Below are positions 2,223 to 38,477 of a stretch of 64,000 nucleotides of DNA, in pieces. Origin of the DNA: Rhodobacter viridis (GTDB lineage: Bacteria > Pseudomonadota > Alphaproteobacteria > Rhodobacterales > Rhodobacteraceae). A program made the translations under genes and the position numbers. The notes beneath the pieces are model-generated. The model worked only from the letters and a program-made list of their open reading frames with translations. It had not been told where the DNA came from and did not search any database. The stretch spans positions 124,001-188,000 of the forward strand of contig NZ_QJTK01000002.1 in the NCBI RefSeq assembly GCF_003217355.1, written 5' to 3'. How positions within the stretch are numbered: the stretch's first letter is position 1; every line of letters begins with the position of its first letter.

Positions 2223-2223
2223 A

Positions 2224-3099
2224 ATGACGGCACGCAAGGGCATCATTCTGGCCGGCGGCTCCGGCACGCGGCTTTACCCGATCACCATCGGCGTCTCGAA
2301 GCAGCTTCTGCCGATCTACGACAAGCCGATGGTCTATTATCCGCTCTCGGTGCTGATGCTCGCGGGCATCCGCGAGATCGCGATCATCACCACGCCGATC
2401 GATCAGGAGCAGTTCAAGCGCACCTTGGGCGATGGCTCGCAATGGGGCCTGAGCCTGACCTATATCGCGCAGCCCTCGCCCGATGGTCTGGCGCAGGCCT
2501 ATATCCTGGCCGAGGACTTCCTTGATGGTGCGCCCTCGGCGATGGTGCTGGGCGACAACATCTTCTTTGGCCACGGCCTCTCGGCACTGCTGGCCGAGGC
2601 CGATGCCCAGACCGCGGGTGGCACCGTCTTCGGCTATCGCGTCGCCGATCCGGAACGCTATGGCGTCGTCGATTTCGACGCCGAGGGCAAGGTCCGCGCG
2701 ATCATCGAGAAACCGCCGGTGCCGCCGTCGAATTTCGCCGTGACCGGGCTTTACTTCCTTGACGGTGCCGCGCCCGAACGCGCCCGCAAGGTCACCCCCT
2801 CGGCACGCGGCGAGCTGGAAATCGTCACGCTGCTGGAAATGTATCTGGCCGAGGGCAGCCTGCGCGTCTGTCAGATGGGCCGCGGCTATGCCTGGCTCGA
2901 CACCGGCACACATGGCAGCCTGCTTGACGCCGGGAATTTCGTGCGCACGCTCGAAGAACGCCAAGGGTTGCAGACCGGCAGCCCGGACGAGATCGCCTTT
3001 GAACGCGGCTGGATCGACGCCGATGGCCTGCGCGCCCGGGCGAAGCTCTTCGGCAAGAACGACTACGGCAATTATCTGCTCAAACTGCTCGACGCGTGA
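2224..3099 (+). CDS. rfbA: Glucose-1-phosphate thymidylyltransferase
   Basis: The enzyme makes dTDP-glucose from dTTP and glucose 1-phosphate, the first and feedback-controlled step of dTDP-rhamnose synthesis. It is 291 residues, typical for RmlA. The nucleotide-binding GGSGTRLYP lies at residues 11-19, followed by KQLLPIYDKPMVYYPL and the metal site region LGDNIFFG. The start lies one base after the rfbD stop, and the stop overlaps the GTG start of the next glycosyltransferase by four bases. Confidence 0.97.
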   Translation: MTARKGIILAGGSGTRLYPITIGVSKQLLPIYDKPMVYYPLSVLMLAGIREIAIITTPIDQEQFKRTLGDGSQWGLSLTYIAQPSPDGLAQAYILAEDFLDGAPSAMVLGDNIFFGHGLSALLAEADAQTAGGTVFGYRVADPERYGVVDFDAEGKVRAIIEKPPVPPSNFAVTGLYFLDGAAPERARKVTPSARGELEIVTLLEMYLAEGSLRVCQMGRGYAWLDTGTHGSLLDAGNFVRTLEERQGLQTGSPDEIAFERGWIDADGLRARAKLFGKNDYGNYLLKLLDA

Positions 3100-4028
3100 G
3101 GCGGCCCGTGACCTCGGTCTCGATCCTGATGGCGACGTGGAATGGCGCGGCGCGGCTGGTGCCGCAGCTCGACAGCTTTGCCGCGCAAGACCTGCCGCCG
3201 GCGCAGCTGATCGTCAGTGACGATGGCTCGACCGATGCGACGCGGCAGGTGCTGACCGATTGGGCGGCCCGCCATCCCGCGATTGCGCTGCGGCTGATGG
3301 ACGGGCCGAAGGCGGGGGCGGCGCAGAATTTCCTGTCGCTGCTGCGCCAGCCGGTCGAGACCGATCTTTGGGCGATCTCGGATCAGGATGATGTCTGGCT
3401 GCAGGAAAAGCTGCGCGTCGCGGCCGCGGCGCTGGCGCAGGGGCGGGCGGATCAGCCCGCGCTTTACTGCGGCCGCTCCTTCGAGGTGAACGAGGATCTG
3501 ACCGGGCATCGGCTGTCGCGCGGCGCGCCCTGGCCGGCCTCCTTTGCCCATGCGCTGGTGCAGAACATCGCGGGCGGCAATACGATGGTGCTGAACCGCG
3601 CCGCGGCCGAGGCGATCCGCAAAGCCGCGCTGCGCACGACGGATACGGTGATCCATGACTGGTGGGTCTATCAGGTGATCACCGGCATCGGGGGCCGGGT
3701 GATCTTCGACGATACGCCGCATCTGCTCTACCGCCAGCACGGGGGCAATGTGATCGGCGCGAACCGCGGCGCATTGGCGACACTCATGCGGGCGCACATG
3801 CTGGTGACCGGGCGGTTTTCCGACTGGTGCCGGCGCAATATCGCGGCGCTGCGGGCGATCGAGGACATGCTGACGCCGGAAAACCGCGCCCTGCTGAGTG
3901 CCTTCGAAACCGCCCGCGCCCTGCCGCCGCTGCAAAGCCTCGCGGCGATCCGCAAGGCGGGCTTTTATCGGCAAGGCCTGCGCGGGCAGCTGTCGCTGTA
4001 TGCCGGGGCGCTGCTGAAGCGGCTCTAG
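3096..4028 (+). CDS. Glycosyltransferase family 2, rhamnosyltransferase-like
   Basis: This 310-residue GT-A fold enzyme probably adds a sugar to the polysaccharide, and rhamnose is the natural guess from its position directly after rfbA. SDDGSTD (residues 41-47) and the DQDD around residues 96-99 are the nucleotide- and metal-binding motifs of GT2 enzymes of the rhamnosyltransferase type. The start is a GTG overlapping the rfbA stop; another GTG lies at 3108. The stop codon lies in the tetranucleotide CTAG at 4025-4028, which also contains the stop of the convergent fibre gene. Confidence 0.9.
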   Translation: MRRPVTSVSILMATWNGAARLVPQLDSFAAQDLPPAQLIVSDDGSTDATRQVLTDWAARHPAIALRLMDGPKAGAAQNFLSLLRQPVETDLWAISDQDDVWLQEKLRVAAAALAQGRADQPALYCGRSFEVNEDLTGHRLSRGAPWPASFAHALVQNIAGGNTMVLNRAAAEAIRKAALRTTDTVIHDWWVYQVITGIGGRVIFDDTPHLLYRQHGGNVIGANRGALATLMRAHMLVTGRFSDWCRRNIAALRAIEDMLTPENRALLSAFETARALPPLQSLAAIRKAGFYRQGLRGQLSLYAGALLKRL

Positions 4029-5140
4029 ACCCAGCGGCCGACGGCGATCAGATCGATCTTGAAGACATCGGCATTGGTCGCATTGCCCAGCCGCACGACA
4101 TGGATGCCCGCCGCCGCCGTGGCATCGAGATCGCCGACGCAGGCGGAACAGCTGCGCCGATCCTGCGTCAACCCGGTCGGCGCCACCCCGCGCGCGCTCA
4201 GCACCGGTGCGGCCGAGAAGGCCTTGGGATAGGTCCAGGTAAAATCGGCGGTCTTGTAGGGCGCGGTGAACGACCCCGAGCCGACCGCGATGATCGAACC
4301 AAGCGTGCGCTGCGCGAAACAGATCTGCGTGCCGTCGGCGAAACGGATGTAGTCGCCATTCGTGCCCGTGCCGCGCTCGAGCACCGCCCCCGTCGGCACG
4401 CCCGTGTTTTGCGCCACGGTGCCAAGCAGATTGCCCGGCCCGTAGCCGTAATCCGCCCGCATCAACCGCCCTGCGGTCACATCGGTGCGCGACTGCTGCA
4501 CCGCCGCCCCCGAGGCAATCCCCGTTGCGCCCGCGAAACTCAGCGCCGTGGTCCAGGCCGCGCCATCGGCGCTGACCTTGATCGCAAAACCGTCGCTGCC
4601 GGTCGTGCCCATCTCGGCCCGGCCCGACCACGAGGTCTGAAACAGCAGGCTTGCGGTGTCGCTCGACAGCGCCTTGTTGATCTTCAGCTGATGCCCGGCC
4701 CCCTCGTGGCTGAGCAGCGTCGCCGCCGCATGGACCGAGAGCCGGTTGGTGGCGTCATGCGTGGTGTTGATCCCCACGCCCGGCAGATTGTCGGTCTGGA
4801 CCGGGGCCACCCCCCAGGCGGTTCCGTCGAAGACAAGCACCGCCCCGTCGGACAGATCGCGCGCCACCCAGCCCGGTTGCGGTGTCGCGAAAAGCCAGCC
4901 GCTGCCGGTCCAGAGCGCCACCGCCGCATCCTGCCCGCTCCAGCCTGCCGCACCGCCCGGGGCAACGATGTAGCGATCCCCGGTCTGCGGCGAAGCGGGC
5001 GGCGTGCTCAGCAGTCGGCCGAGGACGGCCAGCTGCACGATCGCATCCAGAAGGCTCAGCGCCTCGTTGTGGGTGACATGCTTTTGCGCTTGCGAGGGCA
5101 GGATGAGGGGCAGCCCCAGAAGCGGGGTTTGATCGGCCAT
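4025..5140 (-). CDS. DUF2793 tail-fibre-like protein (phage/GTA type)
   Basis: The 371-residue protein starts at an ATG with GGAG seven bases upstream; a longer start at 5221 has no such site. The N-terminus (QTPLLGLPLILPSQAQKHV, NEAL, LDAIVQLAVL) and the following GDRYIV, W-G-DAAVALWTGSGW and FDGTAW segments are typical of DUF2793. The C-terminal half contains RFADGTQICFAQ, a phrase recurring in phage tail-fibre tips, and ends in VGRWV. From memory, DUF2793 proteins occur among the dispersed fibre genes of the R. capsulatus gene transfer agent (GTA). No other phage or GTA gene is present here. Its place between capsule synthesis and export genes suggests that it recognises this polysaccharide, but this is inference. 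Confidence 0.8.
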   Translation of the reverse strand: MADQTPLLGLPLILPSQAQKHVTHNEALSLLDAIVQLAVLGRLLSTPPASPQTGDRYIVAPGGAAGWSGQDAAVALWTGSGWLFATPQPGWVARDLSDGAVLVFDGTAWGVAPVQTDNLPGVGINTTHDATNRLSVHAAATLLSHEGAGHQLKINKALSSDTASLLFQTSWSGRAEMGTTGSDGFAIKVSADGAAWTTALSFAGATGIASGAAVQQSRTDVTAGRLMRADYGYGPGNLLGTVAQNTGVPTGAVLERGTGTNGDYIRFADGTQICFAQRTLGSIIAVGSGSFTAPYKTADFTWTYPKAFSAAPVLSARGVAPTGLTQDRRSCSACVGDLDATAAAGIHVVRLGNATNADVFKIDLIAVGRWV

Positions 5141-5239
5141 GGGAAATCTCCGCAAAGGTGGATTTGCGCAAGCTTTCCTGCCGGAAGGTAAATATGCCCG
5201 AAGACCGGCGTGCGCAGACACCGTGTCGCGCGCAACGGC

Positions 5240-5926
5240 TCAGTCGTCCATCAGGTTGACCTTGAGGCCCTTGCGCTGCATCGCCTTCTGGTAATGCTCG
5301 ATCGCATCGCCGACATCGGGGTAGTAAAAAAGCTGCCCGTCTTCGAGATAGGCCCCCGAGGAACACAGCCGCTTCAGCTCTCCGCGCTGGTGCGACACGA
5401 TGATTGCGCCGGATTTCTTCAGCCGCTCACTCATGAAGGACTGGCACTTCGCGCGGAACGAGGCATCGCCGACCGACATCACCTCGTCGATCAGATAGGT
5501 GTCGAACTCGACCGCCATCGAAAGCGCAAAGGCAAGGCGCGAGCGCATCCCCGAGGAATAGGTCCGCGTCGGCAAATGGAAATGCTGCCCGAGATCCGCG
5601 AAGTCGCGGCAAAACCGGATCGCCTCATCGGTATCGACCCCATAGACCCGGGCGACGAAGCGCACATTCTGCGCCCCGCTCAGATCGCCATGGAAGCTGC
5701 CCGCAAAGCCGATCGGCCAGGAGACCGAACCGTCCGAGATCACCGCGCCGCTGTCCGGTTCGACCGTGCCTGCGATCATCTGCAGCATGGTGGATTTTCC
5801 GGCGCCGTTGCCACCGAGCAATGCCGTGGCCTCGCCCGTCTGAAAGACGAAGTTGATGTTGCGGGCCACCGACTTCGACACCCCGCCAAGCCGGAAGGTC
5901 TTGTTCAGGTTCCGCAGCTCGATCAT
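5240..5926 (-). CDS. kpsT: Capsular polysaccharide ABC exporter, ATPase
   Basis: This is the ATP-binding subunit of an ABC-2 exporter that moves lipid-linked capsule or EPS across the inner membrane. The 228-residue length matches KpsT. Walker A GGNGAGKST is at residues 38-46, the signature SSGMR at 124-128 and Walker B YLIDE at 144-148, with the SVGD that follows in KpsT/TagH-type proteins. It lies three bases downstream of the kpsE stop and so is probably co-transcribed with it. Its permease partner is most likely the divergent kpsM at 7241. Confidence 0.93.
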   Translation of the reverse strand: MIELRNLNKTFRLGGVSKSVARNINFVFQTGEATALLGGNGAGKSTMLQMIAGTVEPDSGAVISDGSVSWPIGFAGSFHGDLSGAQNVRFVARVYGVDTDEAIRFCRDFADLGQHFHLPTRTYSSGMRSRLAFALSMAVEFDTYLIDEVMSVGDASFRAKCQSFMSERLKKSGAIIVSHQRGELKRLCSSGAYLEDGQLFYYPDVGDAIEHYQKAMQRKGLKVNLMDD

Positions 5927-5929
5927 CGC

Positions 5930-7183
5930 TTAACGCCTGTCGCGCAGACTGTAGTAGACCAGAACGCAGATCGACCAGATCAGCGTCAGGAATACGCTCA
6001 TCATCAGGGTGATCACGCCCCGCTCGGGATAGGTCGAAGCCTCGGCCAGCGACGGGGTCGTGTAGGTCGCCAGATACCGGCTTTGCCGCTGCGCCTGTGC
6101 ATTGGCCGAGTCAAGCGAGGCCATCGCGGCCACATAGGCCGAGTTCGCATATTCCACATCGACCGAGAGGCGTTCGTATTCGGCCATCAGCGTCGGGTAA
6201 TCTTCGTCCGACTCGACCTCCGGGCTCTCGGCCGTTCCCATGCCGAACTTGCTTTTTTCCTGCTCGATCAGGGTCTGGATCACATCGATGCGGCGGCGCG
6301 ACTGCGAGATCCGCGGGTCATCGCCGGACGAGGTCTCAAGCGTCAGGTTCAGGTCGATATAGGCCTGTGCCAATTGCTGCTCGAGCGAGGTCAGAAGCCC
6401 CATCTGCCCCTGCACATCTGCGGCCGGATCGATGATCCGGGTCTTCGAGCGGAAGCGCGTGCGTTCCTCCCGCGCCTTCTTGAGCCGCTCGATGGCGATG
6501 CCCAGCTCTTCCTTGGCGTAGCGGGTGGCGTCTTCTCGGGCGATTGCCGACATTTCGTTGATCACCGCGGTCGATTCCGCCACGATTTCCTTCGAGATCG
6601 CCAGCGCATCCTCGCGGGTGAAGGCGCGGGTCTCGACCTCGATCAGGCCGCTGTTCGAGGCGTAGGAGACCTTGACCATGCTTTGCCAGTAATCGACCAG
6701 ATCCTCGATCGTGCCATCGGTGTCATAGGAGAAGACCGGGTCGAAAGCGGGCCGCGAGAAGACCTTGGCAAGATCGATCTTGCGGTTGATGCGCTCGACA
6801 AGGGTCCGGCTCTGGACGAAGGCGTAGATGACCTCGGAATCGGACGAACTGGAATGCGTCAGCATCGAGAGGCCACCGAGCAGATCGCCGGCGGACCCCA
6901 TGTCTTCGGAATGGACGGTGAAGCCGACCTTCGAAGCATATTCATCGGCAGCGATCAGGTAGAGATAGAGCACTCCCAGCGAAACCGGAGCCACGACACC
7001 AAGAAGGAAGCTGAGAAGCAGGATCTTGTGCCGAAACCTCGGTCGGGCACCGGCGGGGCTGCCAATCGTTTTCGTGACCTTTTTCACCGCGGCATTGGCC
7101 GCATCCGAGAGCTGCCTGTTAATCGCTCTTACTCCCGCCGCGCTATCGAAGTGCCGCCAGTCATGGTTATTTGTCTCTCGCAT
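5930..7183 (-). CDS. kpsE: Capsule export inner-membrane/periplasmic adaptor (KpsE/Wzc-type, no kinase)
   Basis: KpsE-type polysaccharide co-polymerases link the ABC exporter to the outer-membrane channel. The 417-residue protein has a transmembrane helix at about residues 53-77, a large periplasmic part with long helices rich in Glu, Arg and Ala (about 215-360), and a second helix near the C-terminus (about 393-412), ending in YYSLRDRR. There is no tyrosine-kinase domain. kpsT follows after three bases. The start is separated by only 57 bases from the divergent kpsM, so the two units share a short promoter region. Confidence 0.88.
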   Translation of the reverse strand: MRETNNHDWRHFDSAAGVRAINRQLSDAANAAVKKVTKTIGSPAGARPRFRHKILLLSFLLGVVAPVSLGVLYLYLIAADEYASKVGFTVHSEDMGSAGDLLGGLSMLTHSSSSDSEVIYAFVQSRTLVERINRKIDLAKVFSRPAFDPVFSYDTDGTIEDLVDYWQSMVKVSYASNSGLIEVETRAFTREDALAISKEIVAESTAVINEMSAIAREDATRYAKEELGIAIERLKKAREERTRFRSKTRIIDPAADVQGQMGLLTSLEQQLAQAYIDLNLTLETSSGDDPRISQSRRRIDVIQTLIEQEKSKFGMGTAESPEVESDEDYPTLMAEYERLSVDVEYANSAYVAAMASLDSANAQAQRQSRYLATYTTPSLAEASTYPERGVITLMMSVFLTLIWSICVLVYYSLRDRR

Positions 7184-7240
7184 TGCAAGCTAAAAAGCAC
7201 TAGCAAGCAGGCGGAGAACCCCGTGGGAGGCCCGTTTTAC

Positions 7241-8044
7241 ATGGAAAAAGGCGCAGTTTCCGTCCGCACCAACCGGGGCAGACTGATCGGCGCGCGCGCC
7301 GTCTTCGCGCTCATCCTGCGCGAGATGACGACGACTTACGGGAAGTCGGCAGGGGGCTATTTCTGGGCGATCGCCGAGCCGGTCGGCGCGATCCTTCTGC
7401 TGTCGGTGGTCTTTTCGCTGATCGTGCGCAATCCGCCGCTGGGGCAGAGCTTTCTGCTGTTCTATGCCAGCGGATTTCTGGCCCTGAGTTCCTACAACGC
7501 GATCTCGATCAACGTCGCGATGTCGATTCGCTTCTCCAAGGCGCTGCTGGCCTATCCAAGCGTCACCTATATCGATGCCATCGTCGCGCGGCTTTTGCTG
7601 ACGACGCTCACGCAAATCCAGGTCTTCGCGATCGTCATCATCGGCGCCATCGAGATGCAGAACATGCAGATCAACATCGACTTCATCGCCCTTGCGCGCG
7701 CCTGGGGCATGATGATGGCGCTGGGAACCGCTGTCGGTCTGCTCAACTGCTATCTGATGACCACCTTTCCGGTCTGGCAGTCGATCTGGGCGATCATGAA
7801 CCGGCCACTGTTTCTGGTCGCGGGCGTGCTGCATCTGGTCGACGAGCTGCCCGATACGATCCGGGACATCAGCCTGCTGCTGCCGCCCGCCCATTTCATC
7901 ATGATGATGCGCAAAGGCATCTACGACACCTACGACGCCCCCTATGTTTCCGAGCTCTACGTCTACGGCGTCGCGCTGGTGATCGGGGCGATCGGGATGC
8001 TGTTGCTGCACCGCCACCACCGCGAAATTCTCTCAGAACGCTGA
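7241..8044 (+). CDS. kpsM: Capsular polysaccharide ABC exporter, permease
   Basis: This is the membrane subunit of the capsule exporter. The ATG at 7241 is preceded by GGGAGG, ten bases away. The 267-residue product has the KpsM architecture: a cytoplasmic N-terminus with FALILREMTTTYGKSAGGYFWAI, six hydrophobic helices and a C-terminal LHRHHREILSER. A longer open frame to the left is antisense to kpsE and kpsT and is rejected. The permease is transcribed away from its ATPase, which is unusual because kpsM and kpsT are normally adjacent and co-directional. Confidence 0.92.
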   Translation: MEKGAVSVRTNRGRLIGARAVFALILREMTTTYGKSAGGYFWAIAEPVGAILLLSVVFSLIVRNPPLGQSFLLFYASGFLALSSYNAISINVAMSIRFSKALLAYPSVTYIDAIVARLLLTTLTQIQVFAIVIIGAIEMQNMQINIDFIALARAWGMMMALGTAVGLLNCYLMTTFPVWQSIWAIMNRPLFLVAGVLHLVDELPDTIRDISLLLPPAHFIMMMRKGIYDTYDAPYVSELYVYGVALVIGAIGMLLLHRHHREILSER

Positions 8045-8180
8045 AACTCCCGGCAAAGCCTCGCGCATCTGCAGCGTAGGTCCGCCAACACACTTGACGA
8101 CGCCCCTGCCCTGCTGGCACCGGTGCGGTGGCGACATGAAATGCTGCAAGGCCGAACTCCGTTAACATCAAAGGCAAAGC

Positions 8181-11100
8181 ATGAAGAACATCGGGACAGA
8201 GACCGTCGGAAGCCCCTCGCTGCGTACCAAGGCATCCGCACCTGTCCAGGCGAGTGACGCGCGCCCCGCCCGCAAGCGCAAGCCCGTGACGTCGAAGCCG
8301 CTTTGCCTGCTGATCCTCGGCATGCATCGCTCGGGCACCAGCATGCTGACGCGGCTGCTGAACATCGCGGGCTATGCGCTGCCGGCAGACCTGATCGGCG
8401 CGACGAAAGACAACCCGACCGGGCATTGGGAGCCCACGGTCCTGAACAAGCTCAATCAGGAGTTTCTGGAGCGGATCGGCAGCGACTGGTCAGACTGGTC
8501 GCATTTGGACCTCGAAGCGCTGCCCGGCGATGTTCTGGCCGCCTATCGTTCGGATCTGCGCGCCTGGCTTCGCGCCGAAAAAGGAAATCGCTACAGCCTT
8601 GTGCTGAAGGAGCCCCGCGCCTGTCGTTTGGCGTTTCCGATCCTTGACGCGCTGGCAGACGAGGACTTCGAAACCCGCGTCATTATCCCCTATCGCAACC
8701 CGCTGGACGTGGCGCGATCGCTTGAGGTGCGCGATCAGATCCCGCTGCGCCGGGGCGTGCTGATCTGGATGCGGCATGTGCTTGACGCGGAAGTCTTCAG
8801 CCGTGGCCTCCGGCGCAGCTTCGTCGATTACGCGCAACTGATGCAGGATTGGGCGATCGAGGCGGAGCGGCTCAGCCGGGACCTCGGGCTTGACCGGCTC
8901 GCCCGCATCGACGAGATCGCCGAAGAGGCGGATTCCTTCATTTCCGACGAACATCGGCACCATTCGGGCGATATCGGCACTCTTGAGGTGATCGACTATA
9001 CCGCCGGGATGGCGCTGACGATCTATCGCGCCCTGGCCGATCTCTGCGCCGATCCGAACAACGCCGAGGTGATGGCGACCTTCGACCAGCTGCGTCTGCA
9101 GCTTGACGAGATCGAGCATTTGACGCTGCCCACCCAGCGCGACACCGACCGTCTGCTGATGGAGGTGCAAACTGCCCTGAGGGCGCTCGAGGTCGAACAT
9201 GTCGATCTCAAGTCCCGCTACGACGAGATGAGCCGAAATGTCGGCGGCATTTGGGAACTGCACGACACGATCGCAGACCTCAACAAGAAGAACGAGAGTT
9301 ACATCTCGGACTTGACGGCGCGGCTTGCCGATCGCGAGGAAGCGGTACACCTGCGCAGCGAGGAACTGACGCGGGCGCAGATTGCGCTGAACGAAAAGAT
9401 ACACGAAATCAATGAGCTGAACGCCCGCCTGACAGAGTTGACTCATGCGGGTCAGATGCTGCAGCAGCGGCTCGACGAAACGGCGAAGCGGCTCGACGAA
9501 AGCTATGCGGAACGCGCGCTTTTCGATCAGGCGATGCAGGGCCGCATCACCCAGCTCGACGGACAACTGAGCGAAGCCTGGGAGAGACTGCAGACGAGCA
9601 ACGAGGCGCGCAACCGCGCCGAGGGCGAGCGGCTGCAGCTGGAACAGGACCTGCGGCTGCGGTTGGTCGATCTCGAAACGAAGCTGAACGCGAGCCGCGC
9701 CGAAATCGAGCGGCACCGGGCCGAACACGACGACATGTTTGCACGCCTGAGCGCTGCAGAGATGCAGTTGAGCGAAAGCCGCGCCCAACTCGAGCGGCAG
9801 GCCGCAGAGCTGGCCGAGACCTCCGGGGCATTGGAAGCCGAACGTGATGCACGGCGCGACATCGAGATCCGGCTGACAGAAACCACTGCGCAGCTGGGCG
9901 ACGTCTCGGGTCAGCTGATCGAAAGCCGGCAGGCCCTGACGGACACCACGACGCAGCTGAACGAAAGCCGGCAGGCGTTCACGACTGTGACCAGCCAGCT
10001 TGCCGACCGCAACCTTCGGCTCGATCAGACCGTGGCGGACCGCGCCGAGATCGTGCAGCAGCTTCAGGCCCGGGCGGGAGAGCTGGCGCATGTGCAGGCA
10101 TTGCTGCAGGACCGCGACCGGCAACTGGGCACCGAACGCGATCAGGCGCAGGCGCAGATGCAGGCGTTGCTGCAGGACCACGACCGGCAACTGAGCGCCG
10201 AGCGCGATCAGGCGCAGGCGCAGATGCAGGCGCTTTACCTCCATATCGCGCATCTCGACCGGGTCATCGCCGCGCATGAAACGACGATCTCCGCGCTGCG
10301 CTCGAGCACGTCCTGGCGCATCACCGCGCCGATGCGTGTGGTGATGACCGGGACGCGATGGGTCAAGCGCGGCAGCCGACGCTCGGCCTCGGTGACGGCC
10401 CGGTTCGTCTGGCATCACTTCCCGCTGCCGTGGTCGCGCAAACTGCAGTTCAAGGACAAGGTCCTGAGCAAAATCGGCTTCCTGCTTGGTGGAACGCATT
10501 TCTACCATGCCTGGCAGGAGGCGAAGCGCGACCGCGAAGTGGCCGCAGAACAGCTGCAGGCGATCCAGCGGCAGCAGGCGCAACATCTGCGTCCCGCGCA
10601 ACCGCAGCCGCCCGCCGAAGTCGCCCCGGAGCCCCCGGAAGCCGCGATGGAGCCGGTGGCCGTCGAACAGGTGCTGATCGCCGAGACGAACACCTTCGTC
10701 GCCCGCCGCCCGACTACCGATCTGACCAATCCGAAAGCGCGGCTGATCGCCTTTTATCTGCCGCAGTTCCATCCGATCCCGGAAAATGACGCCTGGTGGG
10801 GCAAGGGCTTCACCGAATGGACGAATGTCGGCCCGGCACAGCCGCAATTCCCCGGTCATTATCAGCCGCACGAGCCGGTGCCCGAGCTGGGTCAGTATGA
10901 CCTGCTCGACACCGATGTGCAGCGCAAGCAGATCGCGCTCGCCAAGCTCTACGGCATCGGCGGCTTCTGCTTCTACTGGTACTGGTTCGGCGGCAAGCGG
11001 CTTTTGGAGAAGCCGGTGCGCAACTGGCTCGACACGCCCGATCTCGATTTCCCCTTCTGCATCTGCTGGGCGAACGAGAACTGGTCGCGGCGCTGGGACG

Positions 11101-13745
11101 GGCTGGATCAGGAGTTGCTGATCTCGCAAAACCACAGCCCCGAGGATGATCTGGCCTTCATCGCCGAGCTGGCGCCCTATCTGCGCGATCCGCGGTACAT
11201 CCGCATCGATGGCAAACCGCTGATCCTGCTTTATCGTCCCAGCCTGATGCCGAATGTCGTCGAAACCTCGGCGCGCTGGCGCGACTGGTGCCGTCAGAAC
11301 GGCATCGGCGAGATCTATCTGGCCTATCCGCAAAGCTTCGAGACGGTCGATCCGGCGCAATACGGGTTCGACGCAGCGGTGGAATTCCCGCCCAACAACT
11401 ATTCGCCCGACAATCTGACCAGCCGCGTTCCGGGTCTTGCCTCCGATTTCGGCGGCATCGTCTATGACTGGCGGTCCTACGTCACGCGTTCGCGCAATTA
11501 TCCGATGCCGGACTACAAGCTTTACCGCTCGGTCTGCCCATCCTGGGACAACACGGCCCGGCGCAAGAACAAGGGCGCGATCTTTGCCAATTCGAACCCG
11601 GCCGACTATCGGGTCTGGCTTGAAAACGCCGTCACCCGGACGCTCGCCGATGCCCGCACTCCGGACGAGCGGGTGATCTTCGTCAATGCCTGGAACGAAT
11701 GGGCCGAGGGCGCGCATCTCGAGCCCGACACGAAATACGGCTATGCCTATCTCGATGCCTCGCGGGCGGCGCTGAACCCGGCCGAAGTGCCGCGCACGGT
11801 GACGCTGGTCGGCCATGACGCGCATCCGCACGGGGCGCAGATCCTGCTTCTGAACCTGGCGCGCAGCTATGCGCAGAACGGGCTGAAGGTGCAGATCGTG
11901 CTGTTGCAAGGCGGGCAGCTGGTCACCGAATATGCCCGTCATGCGCAGGTGATCATGCTTGATGATCCGGCCTTCGCGGGCGAGAACACCACCCCGCTGT
12001 TGCGCAGCCTGCGGGCCGAGGATGGGCAGGTGGCGATCGTCAATACCACGGTCAGCGCCGATATCCTGCCGATGCTGCGCGACGCCGGCTATCGCACCAT
12101 CTCGCTGATCCACGAGATGAAATCGGTCTACGACCAGATGAACCTGCGGCGACAGATGACCCTGGTCGCCGATCACGCCGATCGCATCGTCTTCCCGGCG
12201 CCGCTGGTACAGACACAGTTCGAGACCTATCTGGGCCGCGAACTGCCTCAGGCCATGGTGCGCCCGCAGGGGCTTTACCTGCACGAGCTTGCCTCTTCGG
12301 CCGAGCTGGCCGCCGAACGCGCCCGGCTGCGCGCCGAACTGGGCATCGACGCGGAGACCACCGTGCTTCTCGGGGTCGGCTATGTCGATCACCGCAAGGG
12401 GGGCGATCTGTTCGTGCGCACGCTGGCAGCGCTGCGCGGCGTCGGGCGCAAGGTGCAGGGCATCTGGATCGGCCATGGCGACATCCACTTCCAACCGCAG
12501 GTCGAGGCTCTTGCCCGCGAGTTGGGCGTAGCCGAGCACATGCGTTTCCTTGGTCGGCAACAGAACCCGATCCCGTTCTATGCCGCCTCGGACGTGTTCC
12601 TGCTGTCCTCGCGCGAGGATCCCTTCCCCTCGGTCGTGCTCGAGGCGATGGCGGCGGGCCTGCCCTGCGTGATGTTCGGCGGCACCACCGGCTGCGAGCT
12701 GCTGGCCCAGCGCGGTCTGGCGATTGCCGTGACGGGCACGGACCCGGTCGGAATGGCCCACGCGGTGGAAAGCCTGATCGACCACCCCGAGCGGCGCGGT
12801 CAGATGGTGGCGGCGGCGCGCGACTACATCGAGGCCGAGGCCGATTTCACCAAATACACGCTGGATCTGCTGGGGCTCTCGGGGCGGCATGTGCCGCGGG
12901 TGTCGGTGATCGTGCCGAACTACAATTACGGCCGTTACATCGAGGACCGCCTGAACACGGTTCTGGCGCAGGATTTCCCGATCTACGAAATCATCGTGCT
13001 GGATGACCGCTCGAGTGACGACAGCCTTGATCGCATCCGCGCCTTTGCCGCGCGCTGCGACCGGCCGATCCGCATTGTCCCGAACGAGACCAATTCGGGC
13101 AATGTGTTCCGGCAATGGATCAAGGGGCTCGAGCTCGCGCATGGCGATTACATCTGGATCGCCGAGGCCGACGATCTGGCCCTGCCCGATTTCCTGACCA
13201 CGGCGATGCGCGGCTTCGAAAAACCGGGCACGGTGCTGTCCTATACGGATTCGGCGCAGATCGACGAGAATGGCACGCCGCTGGCGCCGAACTATCGCTA
13301 TTACACCGACAAGATCAGCCCGACGCATTGGGCGCAGAACTACTGCCGCGACGGCGCCGAGGAGATTTCCGAGGTGCTGTATCTGAAGAACACGATTCCG
13401 AATGTCTCGGGCGTGGTGATGGCGGCAAAGGCGCTGCAAGCGGTTCTGGCCGAGCATCGGAGCGAGCTTGAATCTGTGCGCTTCGTCGGCGACTGGCTGG
13501 TTTATCTGTGGCTTCTCGAGCATGGCGGCATCGCCTTCAACACCGCCTCGAAGAACATCCACCGGCGCCATCAGAACAGCGTCACCATTTCGAACTTCGA
13601 CGCCAAGCAGCTGGCCGAGATCGAAGCCGTTCAGCGCGACGTGCTGGCGCGCCACGGGCTGGGCAGCGCGCAAAAACAAAGAGCCGAGGACTATGTCACG
13701 GAGCTTGCCGTGCAATTCGGCCTGAAAGGAAAGACGAAAGCATGA
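8181..13745 (+). CDS. Giant modular sulfotransferase / coiled-coil / WbsX-like / GT4 / GT2 protein
   Basis: This 1854-residue cytoplasmic protein has five parts. Residues 40-285 are a sulfotransferase with ILGMHRSGTSMLTRLL as the PAPS loop. Residues 300-705 are a nearly unbroken coiled coil rich in Q, L, E and R, with a perfect-register 22-residue tandem repeat at 641-684. A proline-rich linker (800-830) follows. Residues 852-1200 are a WbsX/GH99-like domain (LIAFYLPQFHPIPEND, WWGKGFTEWTNV, NAWNEWAEGAHLEP). Residues 1205-1565 are a GT4 glycosyltransferase (GVGYVDHRKGGDLF, SSREDPFPSVVLEAMAAGLP). Residues 1573-1790 are a GT2 (VSVIVPNYNYGRYIED, DDRSSDDS, EADD). The gene follows kpsM after 136 bases, and its stop overlaps the next sulfotransferase (ATGA). 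It probably assembles and sulfates a repeat or terminal structure of the exported glycan. The exact linkages are unknown. Confidence 0.92.
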   Translation: MKNIGTETVGSPSLRTKASAPVQASDARPARKRKPVTSKPLCLLILGMHRSGTSMLTRLLNIAGYALPADLIGATKDNPTGHWEPTVLNKLNQEFLERIGSDWSDWSHLDLEALPGDVLAAYRSDLRAWLRAEKGNRYSLVLKEPRACRLAFPILDALADEDFETRVIIPYRNPLDVARSLEVRDQIPLRRGVLIWMRHVLDAEVFSRGLRRSFVDYAQLMQDWAIEAERLSRDLGLDRLARIDEIAEEADSFISDEHRHHSGDIGTLEVIDYTAGMALTIYRALADLCADPNNAEVMATFDQLRLQLDEIEHLTLPTQRDTDRLLMEVQTALRALEVEHVDLKSRYDEMSRNVGGIWELHDTIADLNKKNESYISDLTARLADREEAVHLRSEELTRAQIALNEKIHEINELNARLTELTHAGQMLQQRLDETAKRLDESYAERALFDQAMQGRITQLDGQLSEAWERLQTSNEARNRAEGERLQLEQDLRLRLVDLETKLNASRAEIERHRAEHDDMFARLSAAEMQLSESRAQLERQAAELAETSGALEAERDARRDIEIRLTETTAQLGDVSGQLIESRQALTDTTTQLNESRQAFTTVTSQLADRNLRLDQTVADRAEIVQQLQARAGELAHVQALLQDRDRQLGTERDQAQAQMQALLQDHDRQLSAERDQAQAQMQALYLHIAHLDRVIAAHETTISALRSSTSWRITAPMRVVMTGTRWVKRGSRRSASVTARFVWHHFPLPWSRKLQFKDKVLSKIGFLLGGTHFYHAWQEAKRDREVAAEQLQAIQRQQAQHLRPAQPQPPAEVAPEPPEAAMEPVAVEQVLIAETNTFVARRPTTDLTNPKARLIAFYLPQFHPIPENDAWWGKGFTEWTNVGPAQPQFPGHYQPHEPVPELGQYDLLDTDVQRKQIALAKLYGIGGFCFYWYWFGGKRLLEKPVRNWLDTPDLDFPFCICWANENWSRRWDGLDQELLISQNHSPEDDLAFIAELAPYLRDPRYIRIDGKPLILLYRPSLMPNVVETSARWRDWCRQNGIGEIYLAYPQSFETVDPAQYGFDAAVEFPPNNYSPDNLTSRVPGLASDFGGIVYDWRSYVTRSRNYPMPDYKLYRSVCPSWDNTARRKNKGAIFANSNPADYRVWLENAVTRTLADARTPDERVIFVNAWNEWAEGAHLEPDTKYGYAYLDASRAALNPAEVPRTVTLVGHDAHPHGAQILLLNLARSYAQNGLKVQIVLLQGGQLVTEYARHAQVIMLDDPAFAGENTTPLLRSLRAEDGQVAIVNTTVSADILPMLRDAGYRTISLIHEMKSVYDQMNLRRQMTLVADHADRIVFPAPLVQTQFETYLGRELPQAMVRPQGLYLHELASSAELAAERARLRAELGIDAETTVLLGVGYVDHRKGGDLFVRTLAALRGVGRKVQGIWIGHGDIHFQPQVEALARELGVAEHMRFLGRQQNPIPFYAASDVFLLSSREDPFPSVVLEAMAAGLPCVMFGGTTGCELLAQRGLAIAVTGTDPVGMAHAVESLIDHPERRGQMVAAARDYIEAEADFTKYTLDLLGLSGRHVPRVSVIVPNYNYGRYIEDRLNTVLAQDFPIYEIIVLDDRSSDDSLDRIRAFAARCDRPIRIVPNETNSGNVFRQWIKGLELAHGDYIWIAEADDLALPDFLTTAMRGFEKPGTVLSYTDSAQIDENGTPLAPNYRYYTDKISPTHWAQNYCRDGAEEISEVLYLKNTIPNVSGVVMAAKALQAVLAEHRSELESVRFVGDWLVYLWLLEHGGIAFNTASKNIHRRHQNSVTISNFDAKQLAEIEAVQRDVLARHGLGSAQKQRAEDYVTELAVQFGLKGKTKA
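10101..10232 (+). repeat. Two tandem 66-bp units in the coiled-coil coding region
   Basis: Two adjacent 66-base units (10101-10166 and 10167-10232) encode 22-residue copies that begin LLQDRDRQLGTERDQ and LLQDHDRQLSAERDQ. They differ at only a few bases, so the duplication looks recent. The unit length is a multiple of three and adds helical turns to the coiled coil without breaking the frame. A less exact repetition (QLIESRQALTDTT / QLNESRQAFTTVT) lies just upstream, around residues 578-604 of the same protein. Confidence 0.9.
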
Positions 13746-14410
13746 ATTTCGACCACGCCTTCATCATCACCTATGGTCGCTCGGGCTCGACCCTGCTGCA
13801 GGGCCTCCTGAACACCATTCCCGGCGCCGAGATCCGCGGCGAGAACGCCAACCTGCTGTTCTTCATCTACAAGATCTCCGAAGGCCTGCAGATCTGCAAA
13901 CGCCAGAAGGCGGCGGCGACGGATTCCACCCATCCGTGGTTCGGCGCCGATCGCATTCCGTTCGACACCTACCACCGCGACACGCTCGATCTGTTCAAGC
14001 GCGACGTGCTGGCCCCGCGCGAGGGGCGCAGCCTGATCGGCTTCAAGGAAATCCGCTTTCAGATCCCCTATCCGCAGCTGGCGGGATACATTGATTACCT
14101 GCGCGCGAATTTCTCGCGCACGGCGATCATCTTCAACACCCGCGCGCTGGATGCGGTGATCGAGAGCAACCGCAAGGCCAAGCATTTCGTCGTCGAAGAC
14201 AAGGTCCGCGAAGCCGATGCGAACTTCCGCCGTCTGGCCGAAGAGCGTCCGGATCATTGCTACCGGGTGCATTACGACGATTACACCGCCGATCCCGAAG
14301 CGCTGCGCGGCCTGTTCGACTTCCTTGGCGCCCCCTTCGATATGGAGCGGATCCAGGAAACGATGGCGCAAACGCATTCGGTGCGCACCAGCACCGTGTC
14401 AACGAACTGA
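13742..14410 (+). CDS. Sulfotransferase (222 residues)
   Basis: The ATG at 13742 overlaps the TGA of the giant gene (ATGA). FIITYGRSGSTLLQGLLN is a standard 5'-phosphosulfate-binding loop, and IIFNTRALDAVIESNRKAK around residues 130-148 sits where the 3'-phosphate-binding site is expected. The C-terminal YDDYTADPEALRGLFDFLG is typical of PAPS sulfotransferases, where it closes the fold. It is the first of three consecutive single-domain sulfotransferase genes. The substrate is unknown and is probably a sugar of the exported polysaccharide. Confidence 0.88.
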   Translation: MNFDHAFIITYGRSGSTLLQGLLNTIPGAEIRGENANLLFFIYKISEGLQICKRQKAAATDSTHPWFGADRIPFDTYHRDTLDLFKRDVLAPREGRSLIGFKEIRFQIPYPQLAGYIDYLRANFSRTAIIFNTRALDAVIESNRKAKHFVVEDKVREADANFRRLAEERPDHCYRVHYDDYTADPEALRGLFDFLGAPFDMERIQETMAQTHSVRTSTVSTN

Positions 14411-14421
14411 ACGGGCCGATC

Positions 14422-15192
14422 ATGAACCAGACCGTCAACCGGCCCGACATTTTCATCATCGGCACGATGAAGGGCGGCACCACCGCAGCCCATCGCATCC
14501 TGACCGCGCATCCGGACGTCCATTCCGGCACGCAAAAGGAAATCCACTACTTCTCGCTGCATTACGCGCAGGGCGAGGACTGGTATCACCGCCATTTCGA
14601 GGGTCTGCCGGCAGGGCAGCACTATGTCGACGCCAGCCCGACCTATTTCGACACGGCGAATACGCTGCTGATCCCGCGGCTGATCGATCACTATGCACCG
14701 CAAGGCAAACTGATCCTGATCACCCGCAACCCGATCGAACGGGCGATTTCGCACTTCCATCACCTGCGCAAGGTCAACAAGGTTGCGCCCCTGCTCGAGA
14801 TGGATGCGGATGCGTTCCTGTCCCGCGATCTCGGTCGGATGCTCGCGGGGACTGGCGTGATCCCGATGCACTTCATGAACGTGATCAATTTCAGCCTCTA
14901 TCAGGCCAAGGCCGAACGCTTCCGCCGGACCTTCGGAGATCGGCTTCTGGTGCTCGACAACAGCCAGCTGCGCAACGATCCGCAAGGCACGGTGCGACGG
15001 ATGTTCGAACATGTGGGTGTCGATCCGATCTGGGAGGACGGCTTCGTCGAGATCAAGCACAGCCACCAGACCGAGCTGGCCGACATCTCGCGCAAGACCT
15101 TCGACCGGCTCAGCCACATCCTGCGCCCCGATTACGAAGCATTCTGCCAGAAATACGATATCCACTTCAGTTGGCCAACGCCCGACGAATGA
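14422..15192 (+). CDS. Sulfotransferase (heparan/NodH-like, 256 residues)
   Basis: The protein starts at MNQTVNRPDIFIIGTMKGGTT. GTMKGGTTAAHRIL is the 5'-PSB loop, and ITRNPIERAISHFHH (from about residue 100) is a textbook 3'-phosphate-binding motif of the heparan N-deacetylase/sulfotransferase superfamily. The segment with VDASPTYF lies between them, as in that family. It is the most canonical sulfotransferase in the locus. It begins 11 bases after the previous gene and is probably co-transcribed with it. By inference it sulfates a hydroxyl or amino group of the capsule. Confidence 0.93.
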   Translation: MNQTVNRPDIFIIGTMKGGTTAAHRILTAHPDVHSGTQKEIHYFSLHYAQGEDWYHRHFEGLPAGQHYVDASPTYFDTANTLLIPRLIDHYAPQGKLILITRNPIERAISHFHHLRKVNKVAPLLEMDADAFLSRDLGRMLAGTGVIPMHFMNVINFSLYQAKAERFRRTFGDRLLVLDNSQLRNDPQGTVRRMFEHVGVDPIWEDGFVEIKHSHQTELADISRKTFDRLSHILRPDYEAFCQKYDIHFSWPTPDE

Positions 15193-15229: not shown

Positions 15230-15844
15230 ATGATCATCGGACCGGACTTTATCTGGCTGCATGTGCCCAAGTGCGGCGGGACTTCGATTGAACGGACGCT
15301 GCGGCAGGCCTTCGCCCATCGCAAGGATATCCATTTCGACGTCAAGGATATCAAGAACACCGACGCGAACGGACGGGTGCTTTGGCACCACACGATCCCG
15401 ATGCGGCAGGAACATGACAGCACCTTCGACCCCGCGGGCAAGAAGGTGGTGGCGGCGATCCGTCGTCTGCCTGCCTGGCTGCTGAGCCGCGTGCACTATG
15501 AGGTCAACCGCACCAAAGGCGCGGTCTGTCCGAAGCGCGAACAGCTTCTGCGCGGTGAATTTCTTGAACGGAACGGCGCGTTGAATTCGGTCGAAAACGT
15601 CATGCGCCGTTTCAACCGTCCGACTGTGGACGAGTGGGTCCGCGTCGAGAACATGGAAGAAGATCTCAAGCGGATCTTTGCCCTGCCGGACCTGAAGCTG
15701 ATCCATGCCAACGAGGGCAAGATCGAATACGTCCGCAACCTGTCGTTCTGGTTCACGCCCGAAGAACTGCGGGAGCTTTACGCCGCAAACCCGACCTGGG
15801 CGAGCATCGAGCGCCGCGTTTACGGCAAGCTTTTGGGCGAGTGA
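15230..15844 (+). CDS. Sulfotransferase-family protein (204 residues)
   Basis: The start is preceded by the ribosome site AAAGGACAGG. The N-terminal FIWLHVPKCGGTSIERTL is the P-loop of the Sulfotransfer_2 (carbohydrate sulfotransferase) group, in which HxPKxGGTS is diagnostic. The rest is short: a clear 3'-PB motif is not obvious, although VRVENMEEDLKRIFALP is a typical C-terminal feature. It is the last gene of the plus-strand capsule unit, and a hairpin follows directly. An activity different from sulfation cannot be ruled out. Confidence 0.82.
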   Translation: MIIGPDFIWLHVPKCGGTSIERTLRQAFAHRKDIHFDVKDIKNTDANGRVLWHHTIPMRQEHDSTFDPAGKKVVAAIRRLPAWLLSRVHYEVNRTKGAVCPKREQLLRGEFLERNGALNSVENVMRRFNRPTVDEWVRVENMEEDLKRIFALPDLKLIHANEGKIEYVRNLSFWFTPEELRELYAANPTWASIERRVYGKLLGE

Positions 15845-17102: not shown

Positions 17103-18962
17103 TCAGGCGATCACCAGGAAGTCCGCGTTCGTCATGGCCAGATGGTCGTCGAGCGTCGCGACAAGGACGCGCGTGGCGCCCCCCTGGCCATCCACATCAT
17201 ACCAGACCTTGCCGGTGTCGGTTTCGTAGATGATCCGGTCCGACGCATCGGCAGCAAGCCCCGTGGTGTTCGAGGTGAAGGCACTCGCCGCCAGCGTTCC
17301 CGTGCTCGCAATGCCGGTGAAGAACGAGCGGTCAAGGCGGATCGTGTCATCGACCACGACGAAATCGGTGATGACATCGGCATTGCCCGCCGTCGCCGCC
17401 GCGTTGAACAGGAATGCGTCCTGGCCAGCGCCACCGACCAGCCTGTCCACACCGATCCCGCCAATCAGGAGGTCATTGCCATTGCCACCGATGAGGCTGT
17501 CGGCCCCGGCATCTCCCCGCAGCGAGTCGGCACCGGCGCCACCATCCAGCGTGTCATTGCCCGCCGCGCCCTGAAGCGTGTCGTTGCCCGCGCCGGATTG
17601 CAAATTGTTGGCTACAGCGTTGCCGACGATCTTGTCTTTGCCGCCGCCGGTGATGCCGTTCTCGATCACGGCGCCGATGGCGATGGCAAGGTTGCCCACC
17701 AGGCCGAGCATGTCGGAGAAGGTGCCGGCAACGAGGCTGAGCGACTGAGCGACGTTGGAGAAGCTGTAATCGATGGTATCGCGCCCGCCCGAATCCCAGA
17801 TCGTGATCGCGACCGCCGACCCGGTGTAGGTCGACGAGCTGCCTGCGACCATACTGTCAAACAGGGTTTCCAGATACCCGCCCGCGTTGGAATTCTTGCC
17901 GTAGATCGTGTTCCCCGAAGAGCGGGTCGAGGCCCCGTACATCGACTGGATCGCGACGATATCGACCATCATCGCCGTCATGTCATGGGCGAAGGAAGCG
18001 CCGGTGGTCCAGTTTTGCTCCTGGTCGAAATAGGACATGATCGACAGCTGCCAGCTGTCATTTCCCCAATCGGCATCGGTCGGGAAGTCTGCGGTCCCAT
18101 TGTAATAGCTTTGATGGCCCAGACCCAGCGCATGGCCGATCTCGTGGATGTAGGTCTGGAAGCTGTAGCTGTCCATCGACTTGCCGTAATCGCTCAGCCA
18201 ATCCGTGCCGACGTTGACCGACGAACTGTTGATGGTGGTGCCCGTCGTGTCGGAACTTGTATAGGCACTGCCAGTCGCGTCGGGAAGGTCATCGAATTCG
18301 ATATCGGCCGCGCCCGTCGTTTCCTGGAAGGTCACATTGGCGACGGCCGACCAGGCCTGCAACGCCCAGCGCGCCAGCGTTTGCCCGGCGGTCGTGAGGT
18401 TGTGCAGATCGACGGTGATGACATTGCTGACCGAGGTGTCGAAACTGCGCGCCTGCTCGCCCCCCGCTTCCCAATAGCCGTTCACCAGATAATCGACCAG
18501 TTGGTTGATCGTGCCATCGGCCGGAACCGATGGCGTCGCAACCTCGATCGCGGTCATCTGATAGGAGCCGGTAAGCGAGTCACTGGCTTCGCTGGCCTCG
18601 ATATAGTAATAGCCCGAAGTCGAGACGGTATAGGTGATCTGGGAATCGAGCCAATTGTAATCGTCGTTCGTCGCCACGATCGTGCCGGACGGGTTGAAGA
18701 CCTGCAGCCAGGAATCCCCCAGCGTTATGCCGTTCACGTTGAACTGATAGCTGTGGCCCGCGGTCAGATAGATCCGCACGGCGTCGTAGTCGCCCGCATA
18801 GCCGATGACGCCGCTGAACGTGTCACCCACCGACATCGTATAGGTGCTCGAGGTGCCATGTCCTGCATCTGTTGTTTCGGTGATCACCTGATAAACAGGG
18901 GCATTCACCGCGTCCCTTGCAGGCTCGCTGATACGTGACGTCATCAGTTCATTCCTTTCCAT
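17103..18962 (-). CDS. Serralysin-like M10 zinc metalloprotease with RTX repeats
   Basis: This secreted 619-residue protease has an N-terminal pre-peptidase-like beta domain (about 35-141: DYDAVRIYLTAGHSYQF, LQVFNPSG, GYYYIEA), a metzincin catalytic domain with zinc motif HEIGHALGLGH (273-283) and Met-turn SIMSYF (307-312). RTX nonapeptides follow (about 439-515: SGAGNDTLQ, GGNGNDLLI), then a C-terminal region like type I secretion targeting sequences. No classical signal peptide is present, as expected for type I export. A second ATG at 18944 has its own GGAAAGGA and may be the true start. The small exported protein gene 17 bases upstream is probably co-transcribed. No type I exporter genes are nearby. 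Confidence 0.93.
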   Translation of the reverse strand: MERNELMTSRISEPARDAVNAPVYQVITETTDAGHGTSSTYTMSVGDTFSGVIGYAGDYDAVRIYLTAGHSYQFNVNGITLGDSWLQVFNPSGTIVATNDDYNWLDSQITYTVSTSGYYYIEASEASDSLTGSYQMTAIEVATPSVPADGTINQLVDYLVNGYWEAGGEQARSFDTSVSNVITVDLHNLTTAGQTLARWALQAWSAVANVTFQETTGAADIEFDDLPDATGSAYTSSDTTGTTINSSSVNVGTDWLSDYGKSMDSYSFQTYIHEIGHALGLGHQSYYNGTADFPTDADWGNDSWQLSIMSYFDQEQNWTTGASFAHDMTAMMVDIVAIQSMYGASTRSSGNTIYGKNSNAGGYLETLFDSMVAGSSSTYTGSAVAITIWDSGGRDTIDYSFSNVAQSLSLVAGTFSDMLGLVGNLAIAIGAVIENGITGGGKDKIVGNAVANNLQSGAGNDTLQGAAGNDTLDGGAGADSLRGDAGADSLIGGNGNDLLIGGIGVDRLVGGAGQDAFLFNAAATAGNADVITDFVVVDDTIRLDRSFFTGIASTGTLAASAFTSNTTGLAADASDRIIYETDTGKVWYDVDGQGGATRVLVATLDDHLAMTNADFLVIA

Positions 18963-20324: not shown

Positions 20325-24859
<4,535 letters not shown>

Positions 24860-24863
<4 letters not shown>

Positions 24864-38476: not shown

Positions 38477-38477
38477 C

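Follow-up and report, generated by a model that had tools for sequence, protein, structure and literature searches.

A sulfotransferase, a long coiled coil, a WbsX domain and two glycosyltransferases in one protein beside a capsule-type exporter of Rhodobacter viridis

A 64,000-nucleotide stretch of the Rhodobacter viridis genome (assembly GCF_003217355.1, contig NZ_QJTK01000002.1, positions 124,001 to 188,000, forward strand; hereafter the window) contains a gene for an 1854-residue protein, in which a predicted sulfotransferase of the 3'-phosphoadenosine 5'-phosphosulfate (PAPS)-dependent type is joined through a long coiled coil to a WbsX domain and to glycosyltransferases of families 4 and 2 (GT4 and GT2). 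The gene lies beside genes for a capsule-type exporter. The same fusion, and split versions of it, recur in other genomes, and among four orthologues variation in length is confined to the coil and to a linker that follows it. By analogy with WbdD, WbbB and Klebsiella O7 ORF6, the protein may represent a form of polymerase-terminator ruler that is headed by a sulfotransferase and combines sulfate capping with ruler action. This reading is a serious possibility, although it falls somewhat short of even, and plain sulfation by a tethered enzyme is judged to be equally likely.

Domain organisation of the fusion protein

The gene is a single unbroken frame with an ATG start, and the protein that it encodes matches one place only in its own 3.87-Mb genome (55 contigs, E <= 0.001). 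From the N- to the C-terminus the protein consists of the sulfotransferase, a coil of ~410 residues, a segment with the motif SWRxTAPxR, the WbsX domain, GT4 and GT2. A sequence-only reading of the window had described five units in one frame, with the sulfotransferase and the glycosyltransferases held at opposite ends of the coil. The former description is borne out by the uninterrupted frame, Pfam matches and orthologues, and the latter agrees with the domain positions and a structure model. The parts of the gene, in window coordinates, are as follows.

8181-13745 (+): whole fusion gene, 1854 residues, defined by its frame and by orthologues
8295-9050 (+): sulfotransferase head, residues 39-290, with GMHRSGTS at 47-54, K143, P145, R146, R172 and S180
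9063-10301 (+): coiled coil, residues 295-707, from heptad period and model
9531-10301 (+): part of the coil that varies in length (its middle and end), residues 451-707; 21-bp arrays lie here in three congener orthologues
10085-10232 (+): 66-bp tandem repeat, 2.2 copies, 22 residues per unit
10302-10580 (+): SWRITAPMR motif (711-719) and the segment after it, residues 708-800, gap-free in four orthologues
10581-10730 (+): Pro/Ala-rich linker, residues 801-850, also variable in length
10743-11759 (+): WbsX domain (glycoside hydrolase family 99-like), residues 855-1193, with NEWAEG containing E1173 and E1176
11796-12866 (+): GT4 unit, residues 1206-1562
12891-13742 (+): GT2 unit, residues 1571-1854

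The domain search that the sequence-only reading had proposed identified three of these units through Pfam and placed the sulfotransferase head below the Pfam cut-off. Glycos_transf_1 matches residues 1380-1547 (E 1.5e-20), Glycos_transf_2 matches residues 1575-1707 (E 5.3e-23), and Glyco_tran_WbsX (PF14307) covers residues 855-1193 over profile positions 1-349 of 350 (E 8.4e-135). The head itself reaches 21.9 bits against Sulfotransfer_3 (E 2.4e-4), where the curated cut-off is 27.

To place the head among its relatives, a genome collection was scanned with patterns from an alignment of the sulfotransferase, yielding at least 568 confirmed relatives, of which the best 80 loci were kept (L numbers below). 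Each of the ten rows of the alignment (the window protein plus nine relatives) has a Sulfotransfer_3 match at an E value of no more than 1, the best being 1.9e-7; the heads of two further five-unit proteins, L046 and L078, score 25.7 and 26.3 bits, and the relative L109 clears the cut-off of Sulfotransfer_1 (40 bits vs 22). The loop HRSGTS is near-invariant in 81 rows, which were found partly by that loop. R172 and S180 are kept in 81 of 81 rows and K143 in 80, in columns that lie outside the scan patterns, the rows having been ranked by overall similarity. We take the GMHRSGTS and R...S motifs to carry their sulfotransferase meaning, GMHRSGTS being the 5'-phosphosulfate loop, and the spacing of R172 and S180 to be that of the 3'-phosphate site. 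The head is modelled with a blockwise predicted local distance difference test (pLDDT) score of 79-97, and its fold matches sulfotransferase 4gox first, with tyrosylprotein sulfotransferase (TPST) chains also listed and PFKFB kinases scoring alike.

The PFKFB matches, together with the score under the Pfam cut-off, would suit a P-loop domain that is kinase-like or inactive and does not sulfate at all. The conservation of R172 and S180 and the family match of all ten rows speak against such a head, as do the genes for adenosine 5'-phosphosulfate (APS) kinase found within five of the 80 loci (L046, L072, L103, L104 and L113; a raw count without a baseline), making it very improbable. R. viridis itself carries an APS kinase. 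At L046, in Mangrovicella endophytica, cysD-, cysNC- and cysQ-like genes (6158-9794; the last of the inositol-phosphatase family) stand immediately 5' of the five-unit gene; from their sequences, their predicted products synthesise PAPS and would also remove 3'-phosphoadenosine 5'-phosphate, provided that the cysQ-like gene does encode CysQ. The presence of PAPS genes and sulfotransferase genes in a polysaccharide cluster has been called a hallmark of sulfated polysaccharide synthesis (PMC11641403, 2024).

The WbsX unit looks like a member of the glycoside hydrolase family 99 (GH99) group, a kinship that rests on sequence comparison. A profile built from 20 WbsX domains matches, in the PDB, OpGH99A (5ngw) with an E value of 5.3e-6 and the BxGH99-type chain 4ad1 with 2.7e-4. 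E1173 and E1176, in the NEWxEG motif (window 11697-11708), are present in all 20 WbsX rows. In the 4ad1 alignment they fall opposite chain positions 333 and 336, within a stretch that is not significant by itself; OpGH99A, the best match, has N and I at the places of the two glutamates. The pair may correspond to the catalytic glutamates of GH99 enzymes, and the domain may be a hydrolase, a transglycosidase or a transferase. The relationship to the GH99 endo-alpha-mannosidases is distant, and a Foldseek search with a model of the WbsX-GT4-GT2 part returned glycosyltransferase-type enzymes and no GH99 among its top 50. The description of WbsX as a proven glycosyltransferase was not accepted, the evidence for it being the family name; this name is doubtful because the domain is GH99-like and has two conserved glutamates.

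Fused and split forms in other genomes

The five-unit order in one frame was found in four of the 18 genomes of the genus and at two of the 80 sulfotransferase loci: L046, encoding a protein of 1765 residues in M. endophytica, and L078, encoding one of 2604 residues in Rhabdochromatium marinum, where many YYLxxNPDV-type repeats follow the coil (by eye). The search of other genomes suggested by the sequence-only reading thus returned three congeners and these two distant genomes. That reading had called the arrangement unfamiliar; a unique architecture is rejected by these counts, and proteins with a head, a coil and glycosyltransferases are in any case known, namely O7 ORF6 and O12 WbbB (PMC11231755). 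In a survey of the order, in which at most three candidates were scored per genome, the matches listed showed a full fusion for one of 149, and in a survey of the class at E <= 1e-60 for one of 289, in each case the R. viridis genome itself; these two surveys missed the congener fusions that the genus search found. None of 72,556 plasmid records matched the fusion with 80% cover.

These occurrences also bear on whether the gene is genuine, a frameshift or assembly error having been raised as a possibility. The same parts do exist as separate genes elsewhere, as would be expected if such an error had joined them. However, orthologues in one frame are found at the same locus in the three congeners, and the GC content at third codon positions is uniform, at 0.79-0.85 across the units and 0.83-0.86 in four neighbouring genes. 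An artefact is therefore rejected, because the same fusion occurs in other genomes, and its probability is negligible.

Sulfotransferase and WbsX share one frame at six of the 80 loci and occupy separate frames of one locus at five. On three plasmids, from Phaeobacter, Ruegeria and Paracoccus yeei, a GT4-GT2 gene comes after a sulfotransferase-coil gene; no exporter gene is listed for the P. yeei plasmid. The WbsX-GT4-GT2 core also forms the C-terminal part of proteins from Azospirillum, Bradyrhizobium and Aminobacter that are annotated as glycoside hydrolase family 99-like, with its units ordered as here. The N-terminal parts of these proteins differ and comprise a methyltransferase with YYLxxNPDV-type repeats in Aminobacter or repeats alone (by eye). 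Judged likewise by eye, the core of L130, whose WbsX-GT4 part was matched in the class survey, is preceded by a GT2-like part and those of L041, L042 and L002 by repeats. Such split versions of the same partners fit the coupling of sulfation to assembly that the sequence-only reading had suggested.

In a tree of the sulfotransferase, the window protein pairs with the stand-alone L043 (support 1.0). L046 shares a 16-member clade with it (0.913), outside its narrower 8-member clade (0.947), and L078 is nearest to L066. A single origin of the fusion is not supported by this tree, although there may have been one old fusion with later splits.

The coiled coil and its length

A 3.5-residue period is strong from about residue 300 to 650, with a 3.6-residue period stronger at 601-750, and the heptad score of the coil (z 3.9 vs shuffled sequences) contrasts with values of -0.6 to 0.5 for the sulfotransferase, WbsX and GT4. 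Structure prediction of this region, as had been proposed, gave helices at 295-459, 485-571, 575-589 and 618-707, with a blockwise pLDDT of about 50-83 over most of the length.

At the end of the coil a motif of the type SxSWRxTxPxR with a basic tail (window 10311-10337) recurs as a protein C-terminus or ahead of glycosyltransferase units. The segment has no Pfam match in the fusion protein, and it is possible that it binds a membrane or a partner. A second recurrent element, the repeat FDxxWYLxxNPDVxxxGxxPxxHYxxxGxxEGRxP, is found after coils and ahead of WbsX or GT4 units (L078, L041 at 9239-9970, L042 and L002), and a repeat of this type is also seen at the C-termini of sulfotransferase-coil frames such as L047, L054 and L067. 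The L041 segment has no Pfam match; the repeat is possibly a docking or glycan-binding module.

The four orthologues differ in the distance from HRSGTS to SWR, which is 662, 682, 818 or 822 residues. Their pairwise identity is 73-88% in the sulfotransferase, 93-98% in WbsX, 83-97% in GT4 and 89-97% in GT2, and in all six pairs these four units align without gaps, as do the initial 160 coil residues and the 93-residue segment of the SWR motif. From WbsX to the end each has 996 residues. The differences in length therefore sit in the rest of the coil and in the Pro-rich linker only. The orthologues of congeners G443 and G442 lie at the same locus (kpsM 79%, kpsE 84% and kpsT 87% identity), and the G445 stretch aligns to theirs at ~93% over most of 16 kb. 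Such variation in orthologues that are otherwise gap-free fits a ruler or an adjustable spacer.

The coil DNA of the three congeners contains arrays of 21-bp units, one heptad per unit, with 17.5, 26.7 and 31.0 copies and 65-69% matches. Across 78 segments taken behind sulfotransferases (up to 800 codons, and hence partly past the coil), 22 arrays were found; of the 20 whose period is a multiple of three and at least 12 bp, 15 have periods that are multiples of 21 (binomial 1.6e-9). A comparable pair is provided by congeners G024 and G115, which have a stand-alone sulfotransferase-coil protein near a related exporter. Their sulfotransferases are 82% identical and their exporters closer still (kpsE 92%, kpsT 94.5%), and the frames measure 705 vs 1015 residues, with 84-bp units at 1.9 and 3.5 copies. 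Length variation in itself is not new, because it has already been published for the coils of putative methyltransferase genes in Escherichia coli group 3 capsule clusters (PMC13171606).

The heads of the G443 and G442 proteins (L137, L138) are discordant with the rest, at about residues 81-280. The two proteins are 96-97% identical in the start of the coil, WbsX, GT4 and GT2 but 76% in the sulfotransferase, falling to 60-65% in its residues 81-160, and the G442 head is closer to that of the window protein (81%) than to that of G443. This suggests either exchange of the head or fast divergence.

Export locus, possible capping and proposed control of chain length

The sequence-only reading had also placed the gene next to an ABC exporter and noted its overlap with further sulfotransferase genes. 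Both points stand: the kpsM stop at 8044 is separated by 136 bp from the ATG of the fusion gene, kpsT lies in the same locus, and the 3' end overlaps a gene for a 222-residue sulfotransferase by ATGA (13742-13745), with more sulfotransferase genes behind. The neighbouring genes are listed below.

77-700 (+): rmlB-like dehydratase
1377-4028 (+): rmlD (1377-2222), rmlA-like (2224-3099) and GT2 (3096-4028) genes
4025-5221 (-): DUF2793 protein, adjoining the exporter genes in four congeners too
5240-5926 (-): kpsT-like ABC ATPase, 228 residues, Pfam ABC_tran at 22-149
5930-7183 (-): kpsE-like protein without a Pfam match, named by position, size and conserved neighbourhood
7241-8044 (+): kpsM-like ABC-2 permease, by Pfam
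13742-14410 (+): stand-alone sulfotransferase 1, 222 residues, ATGA overlap, by Pfam
14422-15192 (+): stand-alone sulfotransferase 2, by Pfam
15230-15844 (+): sulfotransferase-like protein 3, PKCGGTS motif by eye, no Pfam match

Further downstream are an AlgX-like gene and then M10 peptidase, transglycosylase and glutamate synthase genes. Frames of the Capsule_synth (KpsC/KpsS) family, which would accompany KpsM, KpsT and KpsE in a capsule system of the ABC group 2 type, are found on other contigs (C14, C15). A promoter scan returned no sites, and terminator-like sites numbered six, as against 7.0 in shuffled sequences. The DUF2793 protein recurs in polysaccharide loci (L037 at 37620-38804, L090 at 1248-2684, and L135-L138). 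The M10 peptidase is serralysin-like, with calcium-binding repeats (17103-18962, -), and the 20 kb upstream of the window hold, among other genes, a type I secretion cluster and a 1069-residue Ig-domain protein (L031 5099-13097) that is probably an adhesin. Long antisense frames lie opposite the fusion gene (8490-13715, -, 1741 residues) and, at 20364-25010 (+), opposite the glutamate synthase gene (20325-24863, -); both are read as shadows of the high GC content.

Several known proteins resemble this plan wholly or in part. In Klebsiella pneumoniae, O7 ORF6 comprises a methyltransferase-kinase, a coil and two GT2 modules, and O12 WbbB a Kdo (3-deoxy-D-manno-oct-2-ulosonic acid)-transferase head with two C-terminal glycosyltransferases (PMC11231755). 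As is predicted here, one polypeptide from an ABC-exporter locus bears a chain-modifying head at the far end of a coil and glycosyltransferase modules at its C-terminus; unlike them, the window protein has a predicted sulfotransferase head, a WbsX-GT4-GT2 core and a KpsMTE-like exporter lacking a detected carbohydrate-binding module. WbdD of E. coli O9a and K. pneumoniae O3 likewise has an N-terminal catalytic head, a coil and a C-terminal membrane or recruitment segment, and its split arrangement with WbdA is resembled by stand-alone sulfotransferase-coil-SWRxTAPxR proteins followed by a GT4-GT2 gene. WbdD differs in that it adds methyl-phosphate, where sulfate is predicted here, and in that its cap is read by the carbohydrate-binding module of Wzt (PMC3482155). 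The E. coli group 3 capsule proteins are putative coil-bearing modifying enzymes of variable coil length in KpsMT-type loci, with a methyltransferase in place of the sulfotransferase; since their genes occur in many of these clusters, coil proteins do accompany capsule-type exporters (PMC13171606). Terminators joined to a coil have been described and are reported to be widespread (PMC11231755). Among the open-access papers listed we found no description of a sulfotransferase as a coil-bound head or terminator, of its fusion to WbsX-GT4-GT2, or of heptad-unit arrays.

By analogy with these proteins, the fusion would be an enzyme of polysaccharide assembly that is associated with the membrane and belongs to a KpsMTE-type export locus. 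GT2 and GT4, with WbsX, would extend the chain as a polymerase near the membrane end, where the SWRxTAPxR segment may bind, while the coil would place the PAPS-dependent sulfotransferase at a distance of tens of nanometres. Sulfation, and with it capping or marking, would then be restricted to chains that had grown far enough to arrive at the head. Slippage or duplication in the heptad-coding repeat could then alter coil length with little harm to the heptad register, and chain length might thus be retunable by evolution. One sugar spans about 0.5 nm; on this basis a straight coil of ~415 residues (~62 nm) would meter ~120 sugars, and the longest about a third more. The full proposal, in which sulfate terminates an ABC-exported capsule, a heptad-array coil meters its length, copy number retunes it and head exchange changes what is capped, is rather doubtful.

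In favour of capping with ruler action count the layout shared with O7 ORF6 and O12 WbbB, the company of coil-bearing putative methyltransferases and capsule-type exporters in E. coli, the conserved residues of the head, the APS kinase genes, the recurrent fused and split forms, the confined variation in length with its heptad arrays, and KpsM-like genes at 20 of 44 loci of at least 18 kb. Other observations weigh against it. The exporter is of the capsule type, and no carbohydrate-binding module was detected by Pfam in KpsT; because of the latter, coupling of the O9a type, with cap-dependent export, is argued against. KpsM-like genes were found at only 26 of the 80 loci, many of which are short, and none of the surroundings of L046 (20.8 kb), L078 (14.6 kb) and L090 (20.6 kb) showed a KpsM-, KpsT- or KpsE-like gene. 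Among 74 complete sulfotransferase frames, no more than 55 have at least 80 coil-like residues behind the sulfotransferase, and the SWR motif is matched in just 30 of 81 frames. Within the orthologues the linker varies alongside the coil, and the differences in coil length are not multiples of seven. The window's own coil DNA holds no 21-bp array at score 30, having instead the 66-bp repeat. Moreover, heptad-sized repeats are expected of any coil that keeps its register; they speak to how length changes and not to its importance, and the authors of PMC13171606 regard the variation in their coils as not expected to be critical. Among related systems, the capsule of Haemophilus influenzae b, although also ABC-exported, is described in PMC11231755 as having no terminating residue. 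In the ABC-exported O-antigen cluster of Aeromonas salmonicida a sulfotransferase-domain gene, ORF19, adjoins wbbB; it encodes a separate protein of 216 residues, and according to PMC4483657 the O antigen showed no sulfate.

The additional sulfotransferases at the locus make plain decoration plausible. The tethered sulfotransferase might then act on internal residues, the coil serving as a scaffold that joins sulfation, polymerisation and export, with its length loosely constrained and nothing metered. Two Pfam-supported sulfotransferase genes and one sulfotransferase-like gene lie downstream, and every Sulfotransfer_3 match in the genome at E <= 0.001 falls within this locus, the head of the fusion protein not being among them. 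A Vibrio capsule locus with an ABC exporter and rml, PAPS and sulfotransferase genes is proposed to place sulfated rhamnose inside the repeat (PMC11641403), and the lack of a detected module in KpsT is in keeping with decoration. On the other hand, the stretches fetched from G443 and G442 contain a homologue of stand-alone sulfotransferase 2 only, so the auxiliary enzymes vary while the coil-bound one is kept, and a loosely constrained scaffold accounts less readily for changes in length that affect just the linker and one part of the coil, the stretches on either side of that part being gap-free. Decoration by a tethered enzyme is thus as credible as the ruler, and each comes a little below an even chance. 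A coil that only oligomerises, as a dimer or trimer, to cluster glycosyltransferases at the exporter while the sulfotransferase acts independently, has a precedent in the coil of WbdD, which is needed for trimer formation and is important for activity (PMC3482155). It would also suit the contrast between the 55 coil-bearing frames and the mere 16 of 74 in which a WbsX or glycosyltransferase match was found with the profiles used. Oligomerisation alone, however, leaves a coil of more than 400 residues with a sulfotransferase at its far end unexplained (in 72 of the 74 complete frames the sulfotransferase begins no later than residue 150), and this explanation is unlikely.

Whichever of these applies, the fusion combines a predicted chain-modifying head with a long coil and with glycosyltransferases, all within a single polypeptide next to a capsule-type exporter. 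Nature has provided four orthologues whose catalytic units are gap-free and whose coils differ in length, material on which the ruler idea can be put to the test. A 2025 review (PMC12220298) leaves open whether ABC-exported capsule chains are of unregulated length or are governed by a control factor yet to be identified. If capping and metering both hold true, proteins of this kind would be a factor that controls chain length in some, if not all, capsules of the KpsMT type.

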